From the IMG/VR virus record IMGVR_UViG_3300012002_000197, positions 1-33,957 of that record: a stretch of 33,957 nt of DNA; one strand, given 5' to 3'. Under the pieces are notes generated by a model that worked only from the letters and a program-made list of their open reading frames with translations, was not told the DNA's origin and ran no database searches. Origin of the DNA: a virus. Position 1 is the first letter of the stretch. Every line of letters starts with the position of its first letter. Shown here in pieces: positions 1 to 33,957 of the stretch. The position numbers and the translations under genes were made by a program.

Positions 1-52
1 GAGCAACAGCCTTCTAAGCTGTGGGTCGTGGGTTCGAATCCCGCCCGGATCA
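1..52 (+). tRNA. tRNA-Arg (anticodon TCT), 3' part only
   Basis: Only the 3' portion lies in the window; the acceptor 5' strand and D-arm are outside it. The anticodon stem is ACAGC (6-10) with GCTGT (18-22). The 7-base loop CTTCTAA (11-17) puts anticodon TCT at 13-15, which reads Arg AGA codons. The T-arm is GTGGG (28-32), loop TTCGAAT, CCCGC (40-44) with one G-T pair. The acceptor 3' strand CCGGATC ends at 51, the discriminator base A is 52, and CCA is not encoded. This gene is the integration target: its last 14 bases lie within the att core. Confidence 0.93.
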
Positions 53-55
53 CAA
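39..55 (+). repeat. attL core (17-bp direct repeat with attR)
   Basis: TCCCGCCCGGATCACAA occurs here and at the very end of the window. It starts in the tRNA T-loop and runs three bases past the tRNA end, so the integrated element restores an intact tRNA. The flanking bases differ on the left (A here, T at the right copy). The copy at 33941 may continue past the window, so the true repeat length is at least 17 bp. Confidence 0.93.
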
Positions 56-266: not shown

Positions 267-1421
267 ATGAACCTAAACTACAAATTCGTCCACGCCCGAA
301 AAGGGTTTCGGGAAGATGGCACCGCCTTGGTCCAACTTCGCGTTACCTTAAAGCGAAAAACCAAATACTTTTCCACCGGGCTGTACCTGAAAAAAAACCA
401 GTGGAACACGGCCGGGCACGTTGTGAAACACCCGCAGGTGGAAATCTACAACCAGATTTTGAGCGACATCAGCACCCGGATTAACAATTACACATTCGCC
501 TGTTATCAGAATAAACGTGAGCCGTCCATCGACGAACTGTCAGGTATTATCAACAACAGCAACTACGATAGTTTTATCGAATTTTGCGACAATCTTCCCC
601 AGGATGATCGTTTGAAAAGCAGCACCCGGCATCAACTTGCCAGTTTCACCCGGTTGCTTCGCGGTTTCGGAAAAATCGAATCATTCTCCGACATATCAAT
701 AGAGACCATCCGCCAGTTTGATGAATATCTCTATCGAAAGAAATACCACCCGAATACGATCCGGAAGAAACACGCCATTTTGCGCCGGTACATCAATAAG
801 GCCATCGAAACCGGCCGAATGAAAGAAACCCCTTACAGACATTTCACCATGCCCCGCGGCGTAGACGTCCGCCGAAAATATTTGTCCTGGGAAAACCTCA
901 ATGCTATTATTGAAAAAGAAATGCCCAATCAGCGCCTGGAAGTTGTAAAGGATATGTTCCTATTTAGTTGTTTCACCGGTTTGGCCTATGCCGACGTCAG
1001 GGAACTGGGCCCCGGCGATTTTTACACCCACAACGGCACCATGTTCATCATTACAGCCCGGAAGAAGACCGAAGAAGAATCCGCCATTCCACTCATGCCA
1101 GAAGCGGCCGCCATTGTCGAAAAGTACAACGATCCCAAAGCCGACCGTTTGCTTCCAATTCCTTCCAATCAGCGAATGAATAGTTACCTGAAAGAGATCC
1201 AGACCCTGTGTAATATTTCCATCGAACTCACCACCCACGTTGCTCGACATACATTTGCCACAACCGTCACACTCGAAAACGGGGTCCCTATCGAAACGGT
1301 TTCCCGGATGCTGGGCCACAGCAAGCTGTCAACAACGCAAATATATGCCCGAATCACCCGCCAAAAGCTGGCTGATGACATGCAGGCCCTTCAGGATAAA
1401 ATGAGAAAAAATCACCGATGA
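267..1421 (+). CDS. int: Tyrosine recombinase, phage integrase
   Basis: Site-specific recombinase of 384 residues that should integrate the phage into the adjacent tRNA-Arg. The domain order is typical of Bacteroidota integrases: arm-binding domain (about 1-90), SAM-like core-binding domain (about 100-195), catalytic domain (205-384). Visible active-site residues are Lys266/267, His324 and Arg327 (HVARH), His351 (LGHSKLSTTQ) and nucleophile Tyr360. The usual first arginine is missing: the motif reads TGLAYADV (237-244) with Ala at 240, as in IntDOT-like enzymes where this Arg is also replaced. Position next to attL supports the role. The ATG follows GCT in the context GCTATGA, shared with many starts here. 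The last base of its stop codon is the first base of the 48-bp repeat array, and a diverged copy of its 3' end lies beyond that array. Confidence 0.95.
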   Translation: MNLNYKFVHARKGFREDGTALVQLRVTLKRKTKYFSTGLYLKKNQWNTAGHVVKHPQVEIYNQILSDISTRINNYTFACYQNKREPSIDELSGIINNSNYDSFIEFCDNLPQDDRLKSSTRHQLASFTRLLRGFGKIESFSDISIETIRQFDEYLYRKKYHPNTIRKKHAILRRYINKAIETGRMKETPYRHFTMPRGVDVRRKYLSWENLNAIIEKEMPNQRLEVVKDMFLFSCFTGLAYADVRELGPGDFYTHNGTMFIITARKKTEEESAIPLMPEAAAIVEKYNDPKADRLLPIPSNQRMNSYLKEIQTLCNISIELTTHVARHTFATTVTLENGVPIETVSRMLGHSKLSTTQIYARITRQKLADDMQALQDKMRKNHR

Positions 1422-4887: not shown

Positions 4888-5270
4888 GACCAGCCATCAC
4901 ACCGCGCGAAATGCAGATATGGTCAATGGTAGTGGATGGAAGAACGAAAAAGGAAATTGCCTGCAACCTGGGCCGATCTTACCACACCGTCAATCAGCTT
5001 TACCGGAATCTCTACCAAAAACTCAATATCTGCAAGGAAACGGACCTGGTCCGGGAGTGGTTCATCTATCATGCCATTGTGACAAAAGACGAACTATCCC
5101 GCGCCATACGCCATCACGCCGCCCCGGCCATCATGTTTTTTCTAATGATCACAGCCGCGCAAATTACTTTAGATACCCCGGCCGTAAGGGCCCGAACAAC
5201 ATCACGAACCGTTAGCCGGACATCCAGCCGATCAGGCAGCCGGCGCAAAAAAGCCACCTATTATGCTTAA
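4884..5270 (+). CDS. LuxR-type HTH protein with membrane-like segment
   Basis: 128 residues. The N-terminus is a LuxR/GerE-type helix-turn-helix: ITPREMQIWSMVVDGRTKKE followed by IACNLGRSYHTVNQLYRNLYQKL (about residues 5-48). The middle has a hydrophobic stretch, HAAPAIMFFLMITAAQITL (about 78-96). The tail is very rich in Ser, Arg and Thr (SRTSSRSGSRRKK), a possible DNA- or RNA-contacting tail. A DNA-binding head with a possible membrane segment is unusual; the segment could instead be a buried helix. Its start overlaps the previous stop (ATGA) and its end overlaps the next small gene by 8 bases. Likely an early regulator. Confidence 0.78.
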   Translation: MRPAITPREMQIWSMVVDGRTKKEIACNLGRSYHTVNQLYRNLYQKLNICKETDLVREWFIYHAIVTKDELSRAIRHHAAPAIMFFLMITAAQITLDTPAVRARTTSRTVSRTSSRSGSRRKKATYYA

Positions 5271-5376
5271 CACCATTTTTCACATACTCGTCCTGGTCAT
5301 CATGACCAGTTCAATTGCCTGGATGGCAATTAAGACAATAAAAGATGTAAAAAAACTCTTCAAAAATCACTTGTAA
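5263..5376 (+). CDS. 37-residue single-pass membrane protein
   Basis: Short gene of 37 residues with one long hydrophobic segment (NTIFHILVLVIMTSSIAWMA, residues 3-22) and a Lys-rich tail (KTIKDVKKLFKNHL). Topology by the positive-inside rule puts the C-terminus in the cytoplasm. It overlaps the previous gene by 8 bases, and its stop and the next start share one base (TAATG), strong signs of a real coupled gene in this operon. Function unknown. Confidence 0.65.
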   Translation: MLNTIFHILVLVIMTSSIAWMAIKTIKDVKKLFKNHL

Positions 5377-6628: not shown

Positions 6629-7062
6629 AAACGCATTGTCTAAAAGTTAAAATATGCGTCCATCCCAATTTAAAAGATGAAAATTCAGTCACAGGAGTGA
6701 CCCCAAACCACCGGAATTGGCACATATTAAAGGTTTTGGACTTCCCGACTGAAATTTTAAAAAGACGGGATTGGGTTCAGAAATACTGGGCCGCCAAAAT
6801 GCAATTAAGGTTCCCAAAGCATCTCATAAACCAGCGCGTTGCCGGTTACTGGTACCCTGATGACGACGAAAGCACCATCAAAAAAAGGCAAATTTCAGCC
6901 GCCAAAGGGCAAATATCGAAATTGAAAAGACTAATCGAAGAGCGGAAAAAAGAGTTGTCAACTCAACTTTTTCAGGATTACGAAAACGACCCTTTTATAG
7001 TCAAATGTGAAGCAAAATTGCATACAAAAGAGAATCATTTGTCCAATTTACTAAATTCCTAA
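6625..7062 (+). CDS. Hypothetical early protein with coiled coil
   Basis: 145 residues of unknown family. The N-terminal half contains several aromatic residues and ends in the motif RVAGYWYPDDDEST. The C-terminal third is a basic-acidic helix (AKGQISKLKRLIEERKKELS, about 93-112) likely to form a coiled coil. Start context AGCTATGA; separated from the next gene by only three bases. Its place in the early operon before the replication gene suggests an accessory DNA-metabolism role, which is only inference. Confidence 0.7.
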   Translation: MKTHCLKVKICVHPNLKDENSVTGVTPNHRNWHILKVLDFPTEILKRRDWVQKYWAAKMQLRFPKHLINQRVAGYWYPDDDESTIKKRQISAAKGQISKLKRLIEERKKELSTQLFQDYENDPFIVKCEAKLHTKENHLSNLLNS

Positions 7063-8433: not shown

Positions 8434-9045
8434 ATGGAACTCACGCATCAGTATTACGACGAACGCATCAGCGACATACCAAAACAGTATGTCCGCCAGC
8501 TTATCAATGAGAAGCTAAAACAAATGATCTTCGATTTCGGCCAGAAACTTGCCACTAAAGCCGACGAAGAAGCCGTCACCCATCTCATTCAACGCACCTA
8601 CGAGATATTAACTCAAAAGCATCGATACTGGACATGGGGCGACGTGATCTCAGCGCTCGAACGTGGCAAGGTGGGCCAGTATGGCGGCGTCGCATCTTCA
8701 AAAATAACCGTACAGAAAGTTCAGAGCTGGTTATATCACTATTCCGAAGATCGCGCCCGCCAAAAAAATCAGGAAAAAAAGGACATCCCCCCGCCGGTTG
8801 ACAAAAGCCAGATGGCACCCCCTGAATATGGCGCCGCCCTGGAATGGAAATCAAAGCACCTTTCCGGATACCCGGAATTGTGGGAATATTACACCCTTTC
8901 ACGCGTCCGCGAGCACGTCCGGGCCGGAACGATCAAAGAACTAACCGAACAGGTCAACATCGAAAAGGAAAACTATGCCCCAGTCAACAACTTTTTCACG
9001 AAGCGAAGCAATCGCCGTTCAGCGAATCAGCCAGCTAATAGATAA
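8434..9045 (+). CDS. Hypothetical replication-region protein
   Basis: 203 residues beginning three bases after the initiator gene, so probably part of the same function block. The N-terminal 110 residues are helical with a notable WTWGDVISALERGKVGQYGG motif followed by VQKVQSWLYHYSEDRA. Similar W-x-x-G-E/D-V helical motifs occur in proteins next to replication genes of Bacteroidota mobile elements, as I recall, but I do not recognise a defined family. The position where lambda has gene P makes a helicase-loader role worth considering, but no Walker motif is present. The C-terminal part is basic. Confidence 0.7.
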   Translation: MELTHQYYDERISDIPKQYVRQLINEKLKQMIFDFGQKLATKADEEAVTHLIQRTYEILTQKHRYWTWGDVISALERGKVGQYGGVASSKITVQKVQSWLYHYSEDRARQKNQEKKDIPPPVDKSQMAPPEYGAALEWKSKHLSGYPELWEYYTLSRVREHVRAGTIKELTEQVNIEKENYAPVNNFFTKRSNRRSANQPANR

Positions 9046-9163
9046 CAACCACGTTTCCGAGCTGGTCATCAACAACGAAACAATCAGGATCATCCTTTTA
9101 AATCAGTCAGAGATAACAGTAAAATCAACTTACGCAATCCGAAAAAAAATAGTAGAGCTATGA
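8975..9163 (+). CDS. Small hypothetical protein, start uncertain
   Basis: 62 residues; the first 24 codons overlap the previous gene in another frame. The part after that overlap (ISQLIDNNHVSELVINNETI) looks like a real compact protein. Its end overlaps the next start (ATGA-type, 4 bases). No later in-frame ATG is available, so either this ATG or a non-ATG start near 9040 is used. Confidence 0.5.
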   Translation: MPQSTTFSRSEAIAVQRISQLIDNNHVSELVINNETIRIILLNQSEITVKSTYAIRKKIVEL

Positions 9164-9363
9164 CATTCACCCCCGAACAGATCAAATCAATAACGGCAAC
9201 TGTCCGCCAAAAACACGAAGAAGCCCAGCGCACCGCCACCGAAATGCGCGCCGCCCTCGAACTCGTCCAGCGCCTTTGCGAACATGAGTACGTCGAGCAG
9301 GGCCACGATCACAACTATGTGTATTACAAGTGCAACTATTGTGGCAAAACAAAGCAGGTATGA
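9160..9363 (+). CDS. Small zinc-binding protein
   Basis: 67 residues: a helical first half (ITATVRQKHEEAQRTATEMR) followed by a zinc-ribbon-like end with CEHEY, a His-rich turn (QGHDHNYVYYK) and CNYCGKTKQV. Two Cys pairs plus His could hold one zinc. AGCTATGA start context; its stop overlaps the next ATG (ATGA). Probably an adaptor protein of the early operon; role unknown. Confidence 0.65.
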   Translation: MTFTPEQIKSITATVRQKHEEAQRTATEMRAALELVQRLCEHEYVEQGHDHNYVYYKCNYCGKTKQV

Positions 9364-9986
9364 ATAAGCATCACTATACCGAAGCCGAACGCGGTTACAT
9401 TCGCGACAACTATCCCCACACACCCACCAGAGAAATGGCCAAAAAATTAGGGGTTTCCGTAAATAGCATTTGGAACCAGGCCAATAAAATGGGTCTGAAA
9501 AAAACAAAAGATTGCCTCGCCCGAATGTCAAAAGAGCACATGAAGGATCCGAACCACCCCGGCCGAAAACATTTTTTCCGGCCCGGTCATCAGCCCTGGA
9601 ATCAAAACAAAAAAGGGTGGTGCGCTCCCGGATCTGAGCGAACCTGGTTTAACAAAGGTCACGAACCGCACAACACGAAGTACGACGGTCACACCCGAAT
9701 CAGCAAGGATGGTTATATCGAAATACGCGTAAAAAAAGGAAAGTACAGGCTGATGCACCGACTAATATGGGAGCGCGAATACGGCCCGATACCTTCGGGC
9801 TACATTGTCATTTTCAAAGATGGCAACCCCATGAACGTAACCCTCAGCAATCTGAAGATGATAAGCATGGCCGAAAATATGAAGCGAAACTCTTTTGCCA
9901 ACCTTCCGCCACAAGCGAGGGAACTATTACAAATTAAGCGGGTTCTTACCCGAAAAATTAACCAAAAAACAGAAGATCATGAGTAA
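9360..9986 (+). CDS. HNH endonuclease (HNH_3 type) with HTH head
   Basis: 208 residues from the ATG at 9360 (ORF also open 30 bases upstream, but 9360 overlaps the previous stop as ATGA). The N-terminal 45 residues are a helix-turn-helix (YTEAERGYIRDNYPHTPTRE followed by MAKKLGVSVNSIWNQANKMG), common in phage HNH homing-type enzymes. The nuclease core is YRLMHRLIWEREYGPIPSGY followed by IVIFKDGNPMNVTLSNLKMI, the HNH_3 signature H-R-x-x-W ... G ... V/I-x-F-K-D-G-N ... N-L. The His of IVH is replaced by Phe (VIFKDGN), as in several family members. It could be a free-standing homing endonuclease or a phage-DNA processing nuclease. Coding overlaps the next gene by 8 bases. Confidence 0.83.
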   Translation: MNKHHYTEAERGYIRDNYPHTPTREMAKKLGVSVNSIWNQANKMGLKKTKDCLARMSKEHMKDPNHPGRKHFFRPGHQPWNQNKKGWCAPGSERTWFNKGHEPHNTKYDGHTRISKDGYIEIRVKKGKYRLMHRLIWEREYGPIPSGYIVIFKDGNPMNVTLSNLKMISMAENMKRNSFANLPPQARELLQIKRVLTRKINQKTEDHE

Positions 9987-10284
9987 AGTCACATTCACAG
10001 AAGTAAGAGGCGAAGCCCTCGACGCCATTAAGCAACTCAAAGAGGGCAAAATGGACGTGAAAACCGCCCAGGAAGTTCGCGGTTTGTTAGGTACCATTAT
10101 CGACACCGCCAAAACAGAGGTCGATTTTATTAAATCCATCCCCGACGACGTCAAAAAACAGATGAGTGAAACCCAGTTCAGGTCCATCGCCCCCACGGTC
10201 GAAGATAAGGACATCGCCCTGGATGAATCAATTGAAAAAATCGAAAAAAGCCGGAATAATTATTTGCCCGGCAACAACCCCTAA
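9979..10284 (+). CDS. Hypothetical early protein
   Basis: 101 residues, unknown family: an opening EVRGEALDAIKQLKEGKMDV, then helical segments and an acidic end (VEDKDIALDESIEKIEKSRN). Starting at the ATG 9979 gives an 8-base overlap with the HNH gene; an upstream start at 9895 would overlap far more. Likely a small helical accessory protein of the early operon. Confidence 0.68.
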   Translation: MSKVTFTEVRGEALDAIKQLKEGKMDVKTAQEVRGLLGTIIDTAKTEVDFIKSIPDDVKKQMSETQFRSIAPTVEDKDIALDESIEKIEKSRNNYLPGNNP

Positions 10285-10293
10285 AAATAAAAT

Positions 10294-10503
10294 ATGTTAG
10301 GAGCCGCCGGCTGTGGTTACGAATACGACGAACCCAAATACCAGTGTCATTTTTTAATCAAAAACCTGTTCGGGTTCACCTGTTCCAAATACCACACAAG
10401 CCTCAGAGTTGACAAAAATAGTCAACACCCTTTACGATGCCACCAGTGTCGTGAAGATGCAAGCAAGGACGCCTGGAATAAGATTGTTAAGCAACGGCCG
10501 TAA
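10294..10503 (+). CDS. Small cysteine-rich protein
   Basis: 69 residues with six Cys, including C7, C18, C30 and the pair CHQC (49-52), suggesting one zinc site. The protein is compact and basic at the end (WNKIVKQRP). It is the last gene with base composition like the rest of the early operon. Directly after it the sequence becomes AT-rich, and its final codons contain GTTAAGC, which may be the entry point of the cassette-like insertion. Confidence 0.65.
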   Translation: MLGAAGCGYEYDEPKYQCHFLIKNLFGFTCSKYHTSLRVDKNSQHPLRCHQCREDASKDAWNKIVKQRP

Positions 10504-10522
10504 ACTTTTTAATTTTAAACTT

Positions 10523-10891
10523 ATGATATACTCAACTGAAATAGAAAAATTCCCTAAAGCAAAACAATGCCTGGAATGCCATTCTTGCCAAGATGAAAAT
10601 GATTTTGAATGGAAAATAGCGAGGGTTAAAAATGGTTTTTTCATTGCCTAATTTGGAGATCCTTATTTTAAGGATACTTACTTTAGCTTAGAGGTAAATG
10701 GCAAACATAAGCTGCTTGCAAACTCTGGATGCTTCTTTATACAAGATGATGACTTTGATACCTTTTACGAATTTATAACCATTTTGAAAGAAGGTTGGAC
10801 TGATGATATATGGGATAGCATTGGGGAATTTTTAACAGAAAGACTTACGCAAGATGACGGACTTATGGAATGCGAAATAGTAAAAAATTAA
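10523..10891 (+). pseudogene. Broken small gene with in-frame TAA (cassette 1)
   Basis: One reading frame runs from ATG 10523 to TAA 10889-10891, 122 codons plus stop, interrupted by a single TAA at 10649-10651. Before the stop: 42 residues with CLECHSC and ENDFEWKIARVKNGFFIA. After it: 79 residues beginning FGDPYFKDTYFSLEVNGKHK and ending LTERLTQDDGLMECEIVKN, clearly protein-like and in the same frame. The simplest reading is one recent nonsense change (for example from CAA, GAA or AAA). Recoding of TAA or two separate short genes are less likely. Unknown family; CxxC pattern in the first part. It is AT-rich and lies directly before an attC-like stem-loop, so it looks like the first of three cassette units. 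Confidence 0.75.
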
Positions 10892-11013
10892 CGTTCTGAG
10901 GCTATGAAAAGTAGCGGAATTGAAACACTTAACTATCGAATGAGAAATAAACTTAAATATAATTACTAACTTTTCGGTAAGCACAGACACCGCTATTTTT
11001 TATAGGTGCTGTT
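10890..11013 (+). repeat. attC-like stem-loop 1
   Basis: AAC (10890-10892), overlapping the stop of the broken gene, is paired at the far end with GTT (11011-11013). Inside, CTATGAAAAGTAGCGG (10902-10917) pairs over 16 bases with CCGCTATTTTTTATAG (10990-11005), 14 Watson-Crick and two G-T pairs. The loop is about 70 bases. AAC...stem...GTT with a long variable loop and a total near 120 bp is the layout of long integron attC sites. The right end continues as GTTACCTGCC, the start of the next unit. Confidence 0.6.
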
Positions 11014-11038
11014 ACCTGCCGTTTTAATTCAAATTACA

Positions 11039-11290
11039 ATGGAAAAAGTAAATAGTAAGTTTTGGTTTAAAAATAAATACCAAGACAAAAATGGAAGTAT
11101 GCAAGATGCAACGGTTGTTTTAGATATAAATTACCGACAAAAAACTTACGACATTACACCTTATTGCGGAACTGTCAATGATGGTTTTAAATTCATTCAG
11201 ACAAGCCATAAATGGAAAATGTGGAAAGCTTTGACGAAAAGTATTGATGATGCAATTGATTTTGCTAATAACGAACTTGGCTTGTCTTAA
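11039..11290 (+). CDS. Small unknown protein (cassette 2)
   Basis: 83 residues from ATG 11039; an upstream in-frame start at 11006 would begin inside the boundary sequence and is rejected. The protein starts MEKVNSKFWFKNKYQDKNGS, contains VVLDINYRQKTYDITPYCG and ends in a helix (SIDDAIDFANNELGLS). I do not recognise a family. It is alone in a unit that begins with GTTACCTGCC (11011-11020) and ends, just after its stop, with the exact inverse GGCAGGTAAC (11293-11302). That is the integron cassette rule: the start of a cassette is complementary to the inverse core at its own end. Composition is AT-rich and unlike the flanking phage genes. Confidence 0.72.
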   Translation: MEKVNSKFWFKNKYQDKNGSMQDATVVLDINYRQKTYDITPYCGTVNDGFKFIQTSHKWKMWKALTKSIDDAIDFANNELGLS

Positions 11291-11292
11291 AT

Positions 11293-11424
11293 GGCAGGTA
11301 ACGTCAAACTTGTATAAAATGGCGGGGATATGTGGCACTGACGTATCACCCGGCATAAATTAAAATAAACAGTGCAAGCGGGCTAAAAAGTCATCACACC
11401 CCCGCTTTTTTATACAAATTGTTG
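11293..11424 (+). repeat. attC-like stem-loop 2
   Basis: Begins with inverse core GGCAGGTAAC and ends at GTT (11421-11423). Outer stem: TTGTATAAAA (11310-11319) with TTTTATACAA (11408-11417), then GCGGGG (11322-11327) with CCCCGC (11400-11405). A weaker inner pair is GCACTG (11335-11340) with CAGTGC (11370-11375). Total about 130 bp with a few unpaired bases between arms, close to VCR-type attC sites. Confidence 0.65.
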
Positions 11425-11441
11425 TGGTGCGTTTTATTCAG

Positions 11442-11705
11442 ATGAAAATATCAGAAGCTATAATTCAAAAACGCATGATTCATGAGCATTCAGATATTAC
11501 TTTTCACGCCACTTACAAAGGGCGCGACATACACGTAACAAGCGACCACGGACATGGTTACCCCAAATATGATCACTTAACCAGATATGACATTGAAGTT
11601 CGTGCGGTGGAAAGTGGCATTGCAGATGTTAGCACATGGGAAGACTTTCATACAATGCACGATGCTATTCGGTATGCGTTGAAAGGTGCATGTTTAATAA
11701 ATTAA
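11442..11705 (+). CDS. Small unknown protein (cassette 3)
   Basis: 87 residues from ATG 11442; a GTG at 11424 lies in the boundary motif and is less likely. The sequence MKISEAIIQKRMIHEHSDIT, the His-rich HVTSDHGHGYPKYDHLTRYD and VESGIADVSTWEDFHTMHDA give no known family; two-layer alpha-beta folds of this size are common among cassette proteins. The unit starts with GTTGTGGTGC (11421-11430) and, after the stop, carries GCAACACAAC (11707-11716), its inverse complement in nine of ten positions. The spacer after the start motif (GTTTTATTCAG) resembles that of cassette 2 (GTTTTAATTCA). Confidence 0.7.
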   Translation: MKISEAIIQKRMIHEHSDITFHATYKGRDIHVTSDHGHGYPKYDHLTRYDIEVRAVESGIADVSTWEDFHTMHDAIRYALKGACLIN

Positions 11706-11706
11706 T

Positions 11707-11761
11707 GCAACACAACACGCCCATAACAACAATGTCACATAAAACATTATTGTTAAATGCC
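11707..11761 (+). repeat. attC-like stem-loop 3 (short)
   Basis: GCAACACAAC is followed by AACAACAATGT (11725-11735), which pairs with ACATTATTGTT (11744-11754) except for one mismatch, around an 8-base loop. The right end GTTAAATGCC (11752-11761) fits the integron core GTTRRRY and contains the start codon of the next phage gene. Shorter than the other two, as attC sites vary. Confidence 0.5.
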
Positions 11762-12086
11762 ACACAAACCACAGAAAAAGATCCGCCCCTGGGAGCGAAA
11801 AGCAGACGACAAACCGCATGCCCGTCGGACAAATCCCAACAGGGAAGTGTACAACACCCGCCGATGGCAGAAGGTTAGGGCCTTGTACCTCGCCGATCAT
11901 CCTTTTTGTGAGTGTTCAGAGTGCAAGGCCCGCCCTGTGCCATTGCCGGCCAATGTTGTCGACCACATTGTGCCGATCAACCAGGGCGGCGATCCATGGG
12001 ATGATAGCAACTTTCAGGCAATGAACAGCCGTTGTCACAACCGAAAATCAGGAAGAGAAGCACATGAGTACAACCCTCACAATTAG
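11757..12086 (+). CDS. HNH endonuclease
   Basis: 109 residues. Typical small phage HNH nuclease: a basic N-terminus, YNTRRWQKVRALYLADHPFC followed by ECSECKARPVPLPANVVDHI and VPINQGGDPWDDSNFQAMNS, then RCHNRKSGRE. The catalytic DH is in VVDHI, the central N and final H in NSRCHN; the two CxxC-type Cys pairs hold a structural zinc. HNH proteins of this type often assist cos cleavage with terminase and lie upstream of it, as here. The start codon sits in the cassette boundary GTTAAATG, so the original upstream region has been replaced by the insertion. The gene overlaps the next by 23 bases. Confidence 0.88.
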   Translation: MPHKPQKKIRPWERKADDKPHARRTNPNREVYNTRRWQKVRALYLADHPFCECSECKARPVPLPANVVDHIVPINQGGDPWDDSNFQAMNSRCHNRKSGREAHEYNPHN

Positions 12087-13005
12087 TCAGCTTATCCGGC
12101 AATTCCTTTCCGATCAGGATGTAAGCGACCAATCCCGCGCCCTGTATAGCCGCGTTATTCGCATCTGGTTTCGATACCTTCAGGCATCCGGCATCGATTA
12201 CAACAGCGTCCGCCGCGAGCATGTTATTCAGTACAAGCAACACCTTATCCGCTCCGGAAAAAGCCAGCTAACAGTCGACAATTATATCACAGTTGTGAAA
12301 CTATTCTATCGCTGGGCATCTGGCCGCGGCTACTTTCAGAACATTGCCGAAGGCATCAAAAAGTCACGCCGGTACAAAGGTTTCCGGAAACTTACCATCT
12401 CCCGTGAGAAAATGTCAGAGCTGATCCATAGCCCAGACATTACGAAAGAGAAAGGAAAGCGGGACAAAGCAATCATAACCCTGCTGGCCAAACGCGGCCT
12501 GCGTACCATCGAAGTAAGCCGCGCCAACGTGGAAGACGTGACGCCTGAAGGCATGTACGTTCAGCGAAAAGGCCACAGCGAAAAGGATGAGTTTGTCGAG
12601 CTAACAGATGAAACCATTGACGTCATTCATGACTATCTCGTAACCCGCAACAACTTAAGAGGATATCAACCTCTGTTCACTTCATTAAGCCGGTACAACG
12701 CGCATCAGCGTATAGGTCAGCGGTCAATCAGTAAGATCGTTCGCGACTATCTCATCAGCATCGGCATTCGGGATAAGCGGGTTTCCGCTCACAGTCTCAG
12801 GCATAGTATCGCGAAGTATCTTATCGATGATGGCGTCGAGCTTTACAATGTCCAGTTATTCTTAGGCCATTCATCGCCAGTCATCACACAGATATACACC
12901 CGCATGGCCGAAGAAGAGATCCGCCGCAAGAATGTAGCCGGAAAGGCCATTGACAGAATATTCAATTTAAGCCTAAATAAGGACGTCACATCTGAGAATG
13001 TATAG
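12064..13005 (+). CDS. Second tyrosine recombinase (XerC/D-like)
   Basis: 313 residues with an N-terminal SAM-like DNA-binding domain (1-100) and a complete catalytic domain: Arg147 (RGLRTIEV), Lys169 (QRKG), His243 and Arg246 (HSLRH), His269 (LGHSSPVITQ), Tyr278. Unlike the integrase at 267 it lacks an arm-binding domain and keeps the first Arg, so it resembles Xer-type resolvases more than phage integrases. It lacks the extra helix before the HxLR motif that marks integron integrases. Possible roles are resolving phage dimers, recombining a phage site, or handling the cassettes 300 bp upstream; none is shown. Its start overlaps the HNH gene by 23 bases, so it belongs to the operon. Confidence 0.88.
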   Translation: MSTTLTISQLIRQFLSDQDVSDQSRALYSRVIRIWFRYLQASGIDYNSVRREHVIQYKQHLIRSGKSQLTVDNYITVVKLFYRWASGRGYFQNIAEGIKKSRRYKGFRKLTISREKMSELIHSPDITKEKGKRDKAIITLLAKRGLRTIEVSRANVEDVTPEGMYVQRKGHSEKDEFVELTDETIDVIHDYLVTRNNLRGYQPLFTSLSRYNAHQRIGQRSISKIVRDYLISIGIRDKRVSAHSLRHSIAKYLIDDGVELYNVQLFLGHSSPVITQIYTRMAEEEIRRKNVAGKAIDRIFNLSLNKDVTSENV

Positions 13006-33940: not shown

Positions 33941-33957
33941 TCCCGCCCGGATCACAA
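33941..33957 (+). repeat. attR core (17-bp direct repeat with attL)
   Basis: TCCCGCCCGGATCACAA, identical to 39-55. It marks the right end of the integrated phage; the window ends with it, so host sequence to the right is not visible. Confidence 0.92.

Follow-up and report, generated by a model that had tools for sequence, protein, structure and literature searches.

The window, by which we mean the whole stretch of DNA analysed here, corresponds to a 33,957-base virus record that has an att core at each end (Table 1). Three small-gene units stand head to tail at 10486-11751, in an AT-rich insertion between early genes, as the original prediction had described. The G+C content is 0.33, 0.34 and 0.39 in units 1 to 3, compared with 0.45 in the left flank and 0.53 in the HNH gene on the right, and base composition breaks sharply at both edges of the array (approximately 0.35 inside versus 0.45-0.53 outside). 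Early genes make up the left flank (9160-10503), and on the right lie the HNH gene at 11757, a Xer-like gene at 12064 and the terminase genes from 13928.

Table 1. Features of the array and of the prophage that carries it, in window coordinates
Feature	Position	Strand	Description
attL	1..55	+	3' part of a tRNA with the core CCCGCCCGGATCACAA; Rfam tRNA match at 1-52
Prophage integrase	267..1421	+	tyrosine recombinase, Arm-DNA-bind_5 and Phage_int_SAM_5 (Pfam); not IntI
Cassette 1	10486..11010	+	starts G|TTAAGC; gene 90% identical in nucleotides to L007 1547-1912; G+C 0.33
Gene of cassette 1	10523..10891	+	122 codons, interrupted by an in-frame TAA (10649-10651)
Predicted attC, cassette 1	10886..11017	+	AATTAAC ... 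GTTACCT; arms CTATGAAAAGTAGCGG/CCGCTATTTTTTATAG; best window match of model R2
Cassette 2	11011..11420	+	starts GTTACCTGCC; inverse core GGCAGGTAAC at 11293-11302; 10/10 complementary
Gene of cassette 2	11039..11290	+	83 aa; predicted beta-beta-beta-alpha; 74% homologue in L005, another phage
Predicted attC, cassette 2	11296..11427	+	AGGTAAC ... GTTGTGG; arms TTGTATAAAA..GCGGGG/CCCCGC..TTTTATACAA
Cassette 3	11421..11751	+	starts GTTGTGGTGC; inverse core GCAACACAAC at 11707-11716; 9/10 complementary
Gene of cassette 3	11442..11705	+	87 aa; phrog_33371, function unknown; 74% homologue in L006
Predicted attC, cassette 3	11710..11758	+	ACACAAC ... GTTAAAT; short, lopsided
Right junction	11752..11758	+	G|TTAAAT; composition break; HNH gene starts 5 bases further
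HNH endonuclease	11757..12086	+	right flank of the array; Pfam HNH, phrog_589
Second tyrosine recombinase	12064..13005	+	XerD-like, 300 bases downstream of the array; TIGR02225 141.7 bits
attR	33942..33957	+	16-base core, second copy of CCCGCCCGGATCACAA, by direct reading of the sequence

The same 16-base core lies at both ends of the window, indicating that the window is an entire prophage, att to att. ARAGORN listed no complete tRNA in the window. The prophage integrase carries arm and SAM domains common in Bacteroidota integrases, and we assign it to the Bacteroidota type with its nearest phage matches as a further basis. Its type and the paired att cores, the first of them inside the tRNA match, bear out the proposed setting in a Bacteroidota prophage. 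Directly 3' of the integrase gene, positions 1408-2462 hold approximately 21.7 tandem copies of a 48-base unit (GAAATTCTATGGAACTCACATAGAATTTCC...).

A unit can be judged to be a cassette by complementarity between its start and its own terminal inverse core. The original prediction had reported such complementarity for units 2 and 3, and we recovered it in full (11011-11020 with 11293-11302, and 11421-11430 with 11707-11716). Cassette 1 matches at 5/7 positions (inverse core AATTAAC, start GTTAAGC), and comparison with its homologue in another virus contig (L007) suggests a small deletion between two TAA. The last boundary, GTTAAAT at 11752, fits the consensus GTTRRRY as proposed, and GTTAAGC at 10486, previously described as fitting only in part, fits as well; the internal boundaries GTTACCT and GTTGTGG depart from the consensus, retaining GTT alone. 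The left edge had also been called uncertain, but position 10486 is supported by L007 and L008, two further virus contigs in which unit 1 recurs and begins at the same boundary. Joining both flanks at the outer GTTs yields ATTG|TTAAATGCC, which reads as a plausible attG-like insertion target; our search for a relative with an empty target, which would confirm the joined-flank site, found none.

We assessed how readily such a pattern arises by chance. We counted as a unit any start and inverse core, 150-1600 bases apart, that were complementary at no fewer than nine of 10 bases, and as an event any unit with a hairpin behind it leading into the start of a further unit; the strict form requires an exact first unit and a strong hairpin. 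The strict event occurs once in the window and was absent from dinucleotide shuffles of positions 9900-12400 (0/300), from shuffles of the whole window (0/25) and from 623,030 strand-bases of other phage contigs, while a looser form appeared in 1/300 shuffles of the 9900-12400 region. At least one event was found in each positive control, Shewanella phage M16-3 and Polaribacter phage P12002L, and in two loci from other phages with arrays (L028 and L029). The Tetrasphaera TJE1 array gave 0 events by the same count, indicating that the test overlooks some arrays. In the window, both the chained complementarities (10/10 and 9/10) and the attC-like hairpins are real and beyond chance expectation.

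Long stem-loops with paired arms, ending in GTT, had been placed between the units, and they are present at 10886-11017 and 11296-11427. These two good predicted attC sites stand 278 bases apart, and in a scan of all 1175 AAC...GTT pairs on the plus strand they rank 5 and 2, respectively. The top pairing of that scan (11849-11961) falls within the HNH gene, and we discounted it as a chance pairing. When the boundary hairpins were folded, the second was more stable than its shuffles on both strands (z -2.3/-2.5) but the first was not (z -0.3/-0.7), a weak value that reflects its AT-rich sequence and long loop. The hairpin at 11710-11758 has fold z values of -1.6 and -2.1, and the attC of cassette 3 is probably degenerate or truncated. 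An Rfam scan of the window returned the tRNA piece alone and no attC family.

The original prediction also called for scoring with an attC covariance model. Model R1 was built from six loop-trimmed sites from L007, P12002L and a related phage contig (G005), with none from the window, and recovered 5/6 of its training sites plus three further sites in L029 and L034. R1 gave no match in the window with default filters and a single weak, off-register match of 8.8 bits with filters off; it also missed a 131-base site in G005, because it cannot span long loops. With no in-register window match, R1 was replaced as the scoring model by R2, which was built from eight R1 matches (in G005, L007's phage and P12002L) and left out both the window sites and the 131-base G005 site. 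The training sites were hand-picked by us, and R2 is no stand-in for published attC models. Run on both strands without filters, R2 ranked 10886-11017 first (13.9 bits, weak E of 0.4) and 11296-11427 third (10.9 bits, weak E of 2.3) in the window, while the site at 11710-11758 was found by neither model. The individual window scores are weak, and the evidence lies instead in two of the top three matches having exactly the ends predicted by the boundary rule. The held-out 131-base G005 site scored 25.9 bits (E 0.005) under R2.

Cassette 1 recurs outside the window, where its 90% DNA identity to L007 across the gene is bordered on both sides by unrelated sequence. A breakpoint test of this cassette showed that homology among the window, L007 and L008 runs from GTTA to the stop codon just before attC. 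L007 comes from an unrelated tailed phage, as judged from its matches to Terminase_3 (another terminase family), portal and tape measure proteins, and the neighbors of cassette 1 in that phage also pair start with end at 10/10 (L029 10369-10594, 10676-10905 and 11222-11458). The L008 copy has the start/end pair GTTAGCTG and CAGCTAAC. Two GGGGGAGTGTCAA-type palindrome copies (L008 4155-4190 and 5280-5325) bracket the unit 1 homologue and its neighbors there, an arrangement suggestive of a second mobile element around the cassette.

These shared breakpoints bear on the idea that the units are ordinary phage “morons” with terminators, acquired by homologous or illegitimate recombination, with coincidental boundary matches. 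The cargo families of units 2 and 3 are indeed found in phages without the boundaries, and the hairpins contain T runs. However, a terminator consensus scan, which accepts loops of 3-8 bases only, detected none at the hairpins, chance poorly explains the chained complementarities, and the breakpoints in an unrelated phage fall at the same GTT. We therefore regard ordinary morons as an extremely improbable source of the units.

The genes of cassettes 2 and 3 are open frames, and the gene of cassette 1, interrupted in the window, has intact copies in L007 and L008. The dN/dS between copies of the cassette 1 gene is approximately 0.08-0.13 (window versus L007, approximately 0.08), which points to purifying selection on the cargo genes wherever it could be measured. 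The predicted structure of the unit 1 product is a poor model (pLDDT 43), and the AlphaFold model of the unit 2 product (pLDDT 78) consists of three strands and a long helix, with no confident structural match in a fold search. The same genes without boundary repeats in related phages had been named as evidence against a cassette array. Such genes turned up only as the 74% homologues of units 2 and 3 in unrelated phages, which shows that these families occur outside cassettes too and leaves the boundaries in the window standing. In L006, the repeat TTAAATTAACTTAAAATA occurs on both sides of the unit 3 homologue (4979-5300), with a shorter copy near 6830, and is probably a repeated promoter or leader. 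A defense-gene search of the cargo gave nothing convincing; the cargo is expected to comprise small phage-host interaction genes, with any benefit that they bring presumed.

Searches of annotated phages and plasmids, at both DNA and protein level, gave no relevant match to the cassettes. Two genome-collection scans, one with unit 2 and one with the terminase, returned nothing and thus no genome with IntI plus these cassettes, and viral scans with the unit 1 alignment, the unit 2 alignment and the protein at 8434 added no contigs to those already found.

A comparison with related phages had been suggested, and it proved informative. The closest relative, the 28,286-base contig G005, matches the window in its integrase (67%), its terminase (75%) and many early proteins between, and it holds other cassettes in the corresponding region. 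Correspondence here is defined by the left side and gene order, since the contig stops before the right flank; the cassettes sit at the contig end, beyond the counterpart of the window gene at 9160. One G005 attC (L028 778-648) has arms GCTATGAAAAGTAGCGG/CCGCTATTTTTTATAGC, near-identical to those of the first hairpin in the window. One of its cassettes, GTTAGCGTTT...GAACGCTAAC, encloses a gene of 83-93 residues, and another, GTTAGAAAAC...TTTTTCTAAC, encloses a phrog_21778 gene. The early region of G005 also carries a tandem array different from that of the window, with 4.6 copies of a 66-base unit (L028 6438-6739).

The different content of G005 weighs on the question of whether the array is a fossil, that is, a piece of a chromosomal integron acquired with flanking DNA and without cassette exchange since. 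Qi et al. described phages that took a piece of a chromosomal array (PMC9892861), and parts of the window array would agree with such an origin: cassette 1 looks worn, with an interrupted gene and an inverse core that poorly matches its own start, and the last attC site is lopsided. Yet the window contains no integron flank (attI or intI), the genes of cassettes 2 and 3 are still open, and the relative holds different genes. A fossil without later exchange is a doubtful explanation, although one to be taken seriously.

All proteins encoded in the window score below the TIGR02249 cut-off of 265 bits, in agreement with the earlier statement that no integron integrase is visible; the prophage integrase scores 41.8 bits. 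The protein at 12064-13005 was considered as an integron integrase and rejected, as it scores 48.7 bits against the same cut-off and is without the IntI-specific segment of the Shewanella IntI2. With no intI above the cut-off, the locus is not a complete integron (intI plus attI). It has at least two nearby attC sites and no intI near, the pattern that defines a CALIN, an assignment that hinges on accepting the attC calls. We conclude that 10486-11751 is very probably a phage-borne CALIN of three integron cassettes within a complete temperate Bacteroidota prophage.

Which enzyme inserted the cassettes is a separate question. The Xer-like recombinase of the phage could shift them in cis, giving the phage its own two-part exchange device: its gene lies 300 bases from the last array boundary, a separate attachment integrase is already present at 267-1421, and a contig that is 91% identical to the array-bearing G005 in DNA (L012) has a Xer-like homologue (C-terminal 59%) at the same place, before the small terminase. 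Against this stand its score as a XerD, far under the IntI cut-off, the missing Shewanella IntI2 segment, and the record of L007's array-bearing phage, perhaps incomplete, in which a search that detects ordinary integrases matched no tyrosine recombinase. The enzyme in that phage thus most likely came from elsewhere, and we consider action of the Xer-like protein in cis very unlikely. As the window has no IntI, its recombinase is XerD-like and none was matched in L007's record, the simplest reading is that a host integron integrase inserted the cassettes in trans, as the original prediction had supposed; whereas the cassette architecture, its sharp edges and the differing content of G005 are demonstrated, the identity of this enzyme and any current mobility of the array we infer.

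Each cassette is one small gene with a terminal attC-like hairpin. Under insertion in trans, most likely a host integron integrase would join the single-stranded attC hairpins of free cassette circles. The first insertion would take place at the GTT-bearing, attG-like site ATTG|TTAAAT in the phage genome, and later ones at attC sites already in the phage. Carried by the phage, the cassettes would then reach new hosts and could be swapped again by an integrase there. Insertion at attG sites in bacterial genomes was reported by Loot et al. (2024; cited in PMC11023631), and it would account for cassettes outside integrons at a simple GTT-type site. A bolder proposal, which we rate as rather improbable, is that this temperate Bacteroidota phage lineage maintains a standing cassette-exchange locus fed by a pool that circulates in phages, perhaps with help from the adjacent Xer-like recombinase. 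If true, the exchange locus would lie between the early genes and the HNH/Xer genes, and the pool, made up of small genes from phage families, would be mainly in phages and not in chromosomal integrons.

Phage-borne CALINs have been known since 2023, when Qi et al. described complete integrons in temperate phages and 17 phage CALINs, including that of the Bacteroidota phage P12002L, and found that IntI1 recombined 5/6 of the phage attC sites tested, a P12002L site among them (PMC9892861). The window is a further example. Like the P12002L CALIN (PMC9892861), it is carried by a Bacteroidota phage and has cassette-type attC without an integrase, and sites in both share the form TAACG, approximately 6 bases, stem ... 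stem, 3-4 bases, GTT. In contrast, P12002L is virulent, with methyltransferase cargo and sites of 55-65 bases, whereas the window is a temperate phage with small genes of unknown function, 132-base sites and a relative that has other cassettes. The integrons of Vibrio anguillarum and Shewanella temperate phages (M16-3; PMC9892861) likewise place cassettes in temperate phages, but they have an integron integrase, and M16-3 also attI, neither of which is present in the window.

New here are the occurrence of a CALIN in a temperate Bacteroidota phage, the other cassettes of a near relative, and the sharing of one cassette between unrelated phages. In Bacteroidetes, the one complete integron reported by IntegronFinder 2.0 was that of Salinibacter ruber M1 (PMC9024848); no suitable host integrase is therefore known, a point against insertion in trans. 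Our results point to phages as cassette carriers in Bacteroidota, a phylum with few reported complete integrons and a hardly known integrase, and suggest that viruses help cassettes move among bacteria. In P12002L itself, a gene on the minus strand (L034 14505-15197) lies between GTTGTGTACA and TGTACACAAC, which pair at 10/10, with a hairpin after, and is possibly a cassette apart from the two methyltransferase-rich stretches of that phage.
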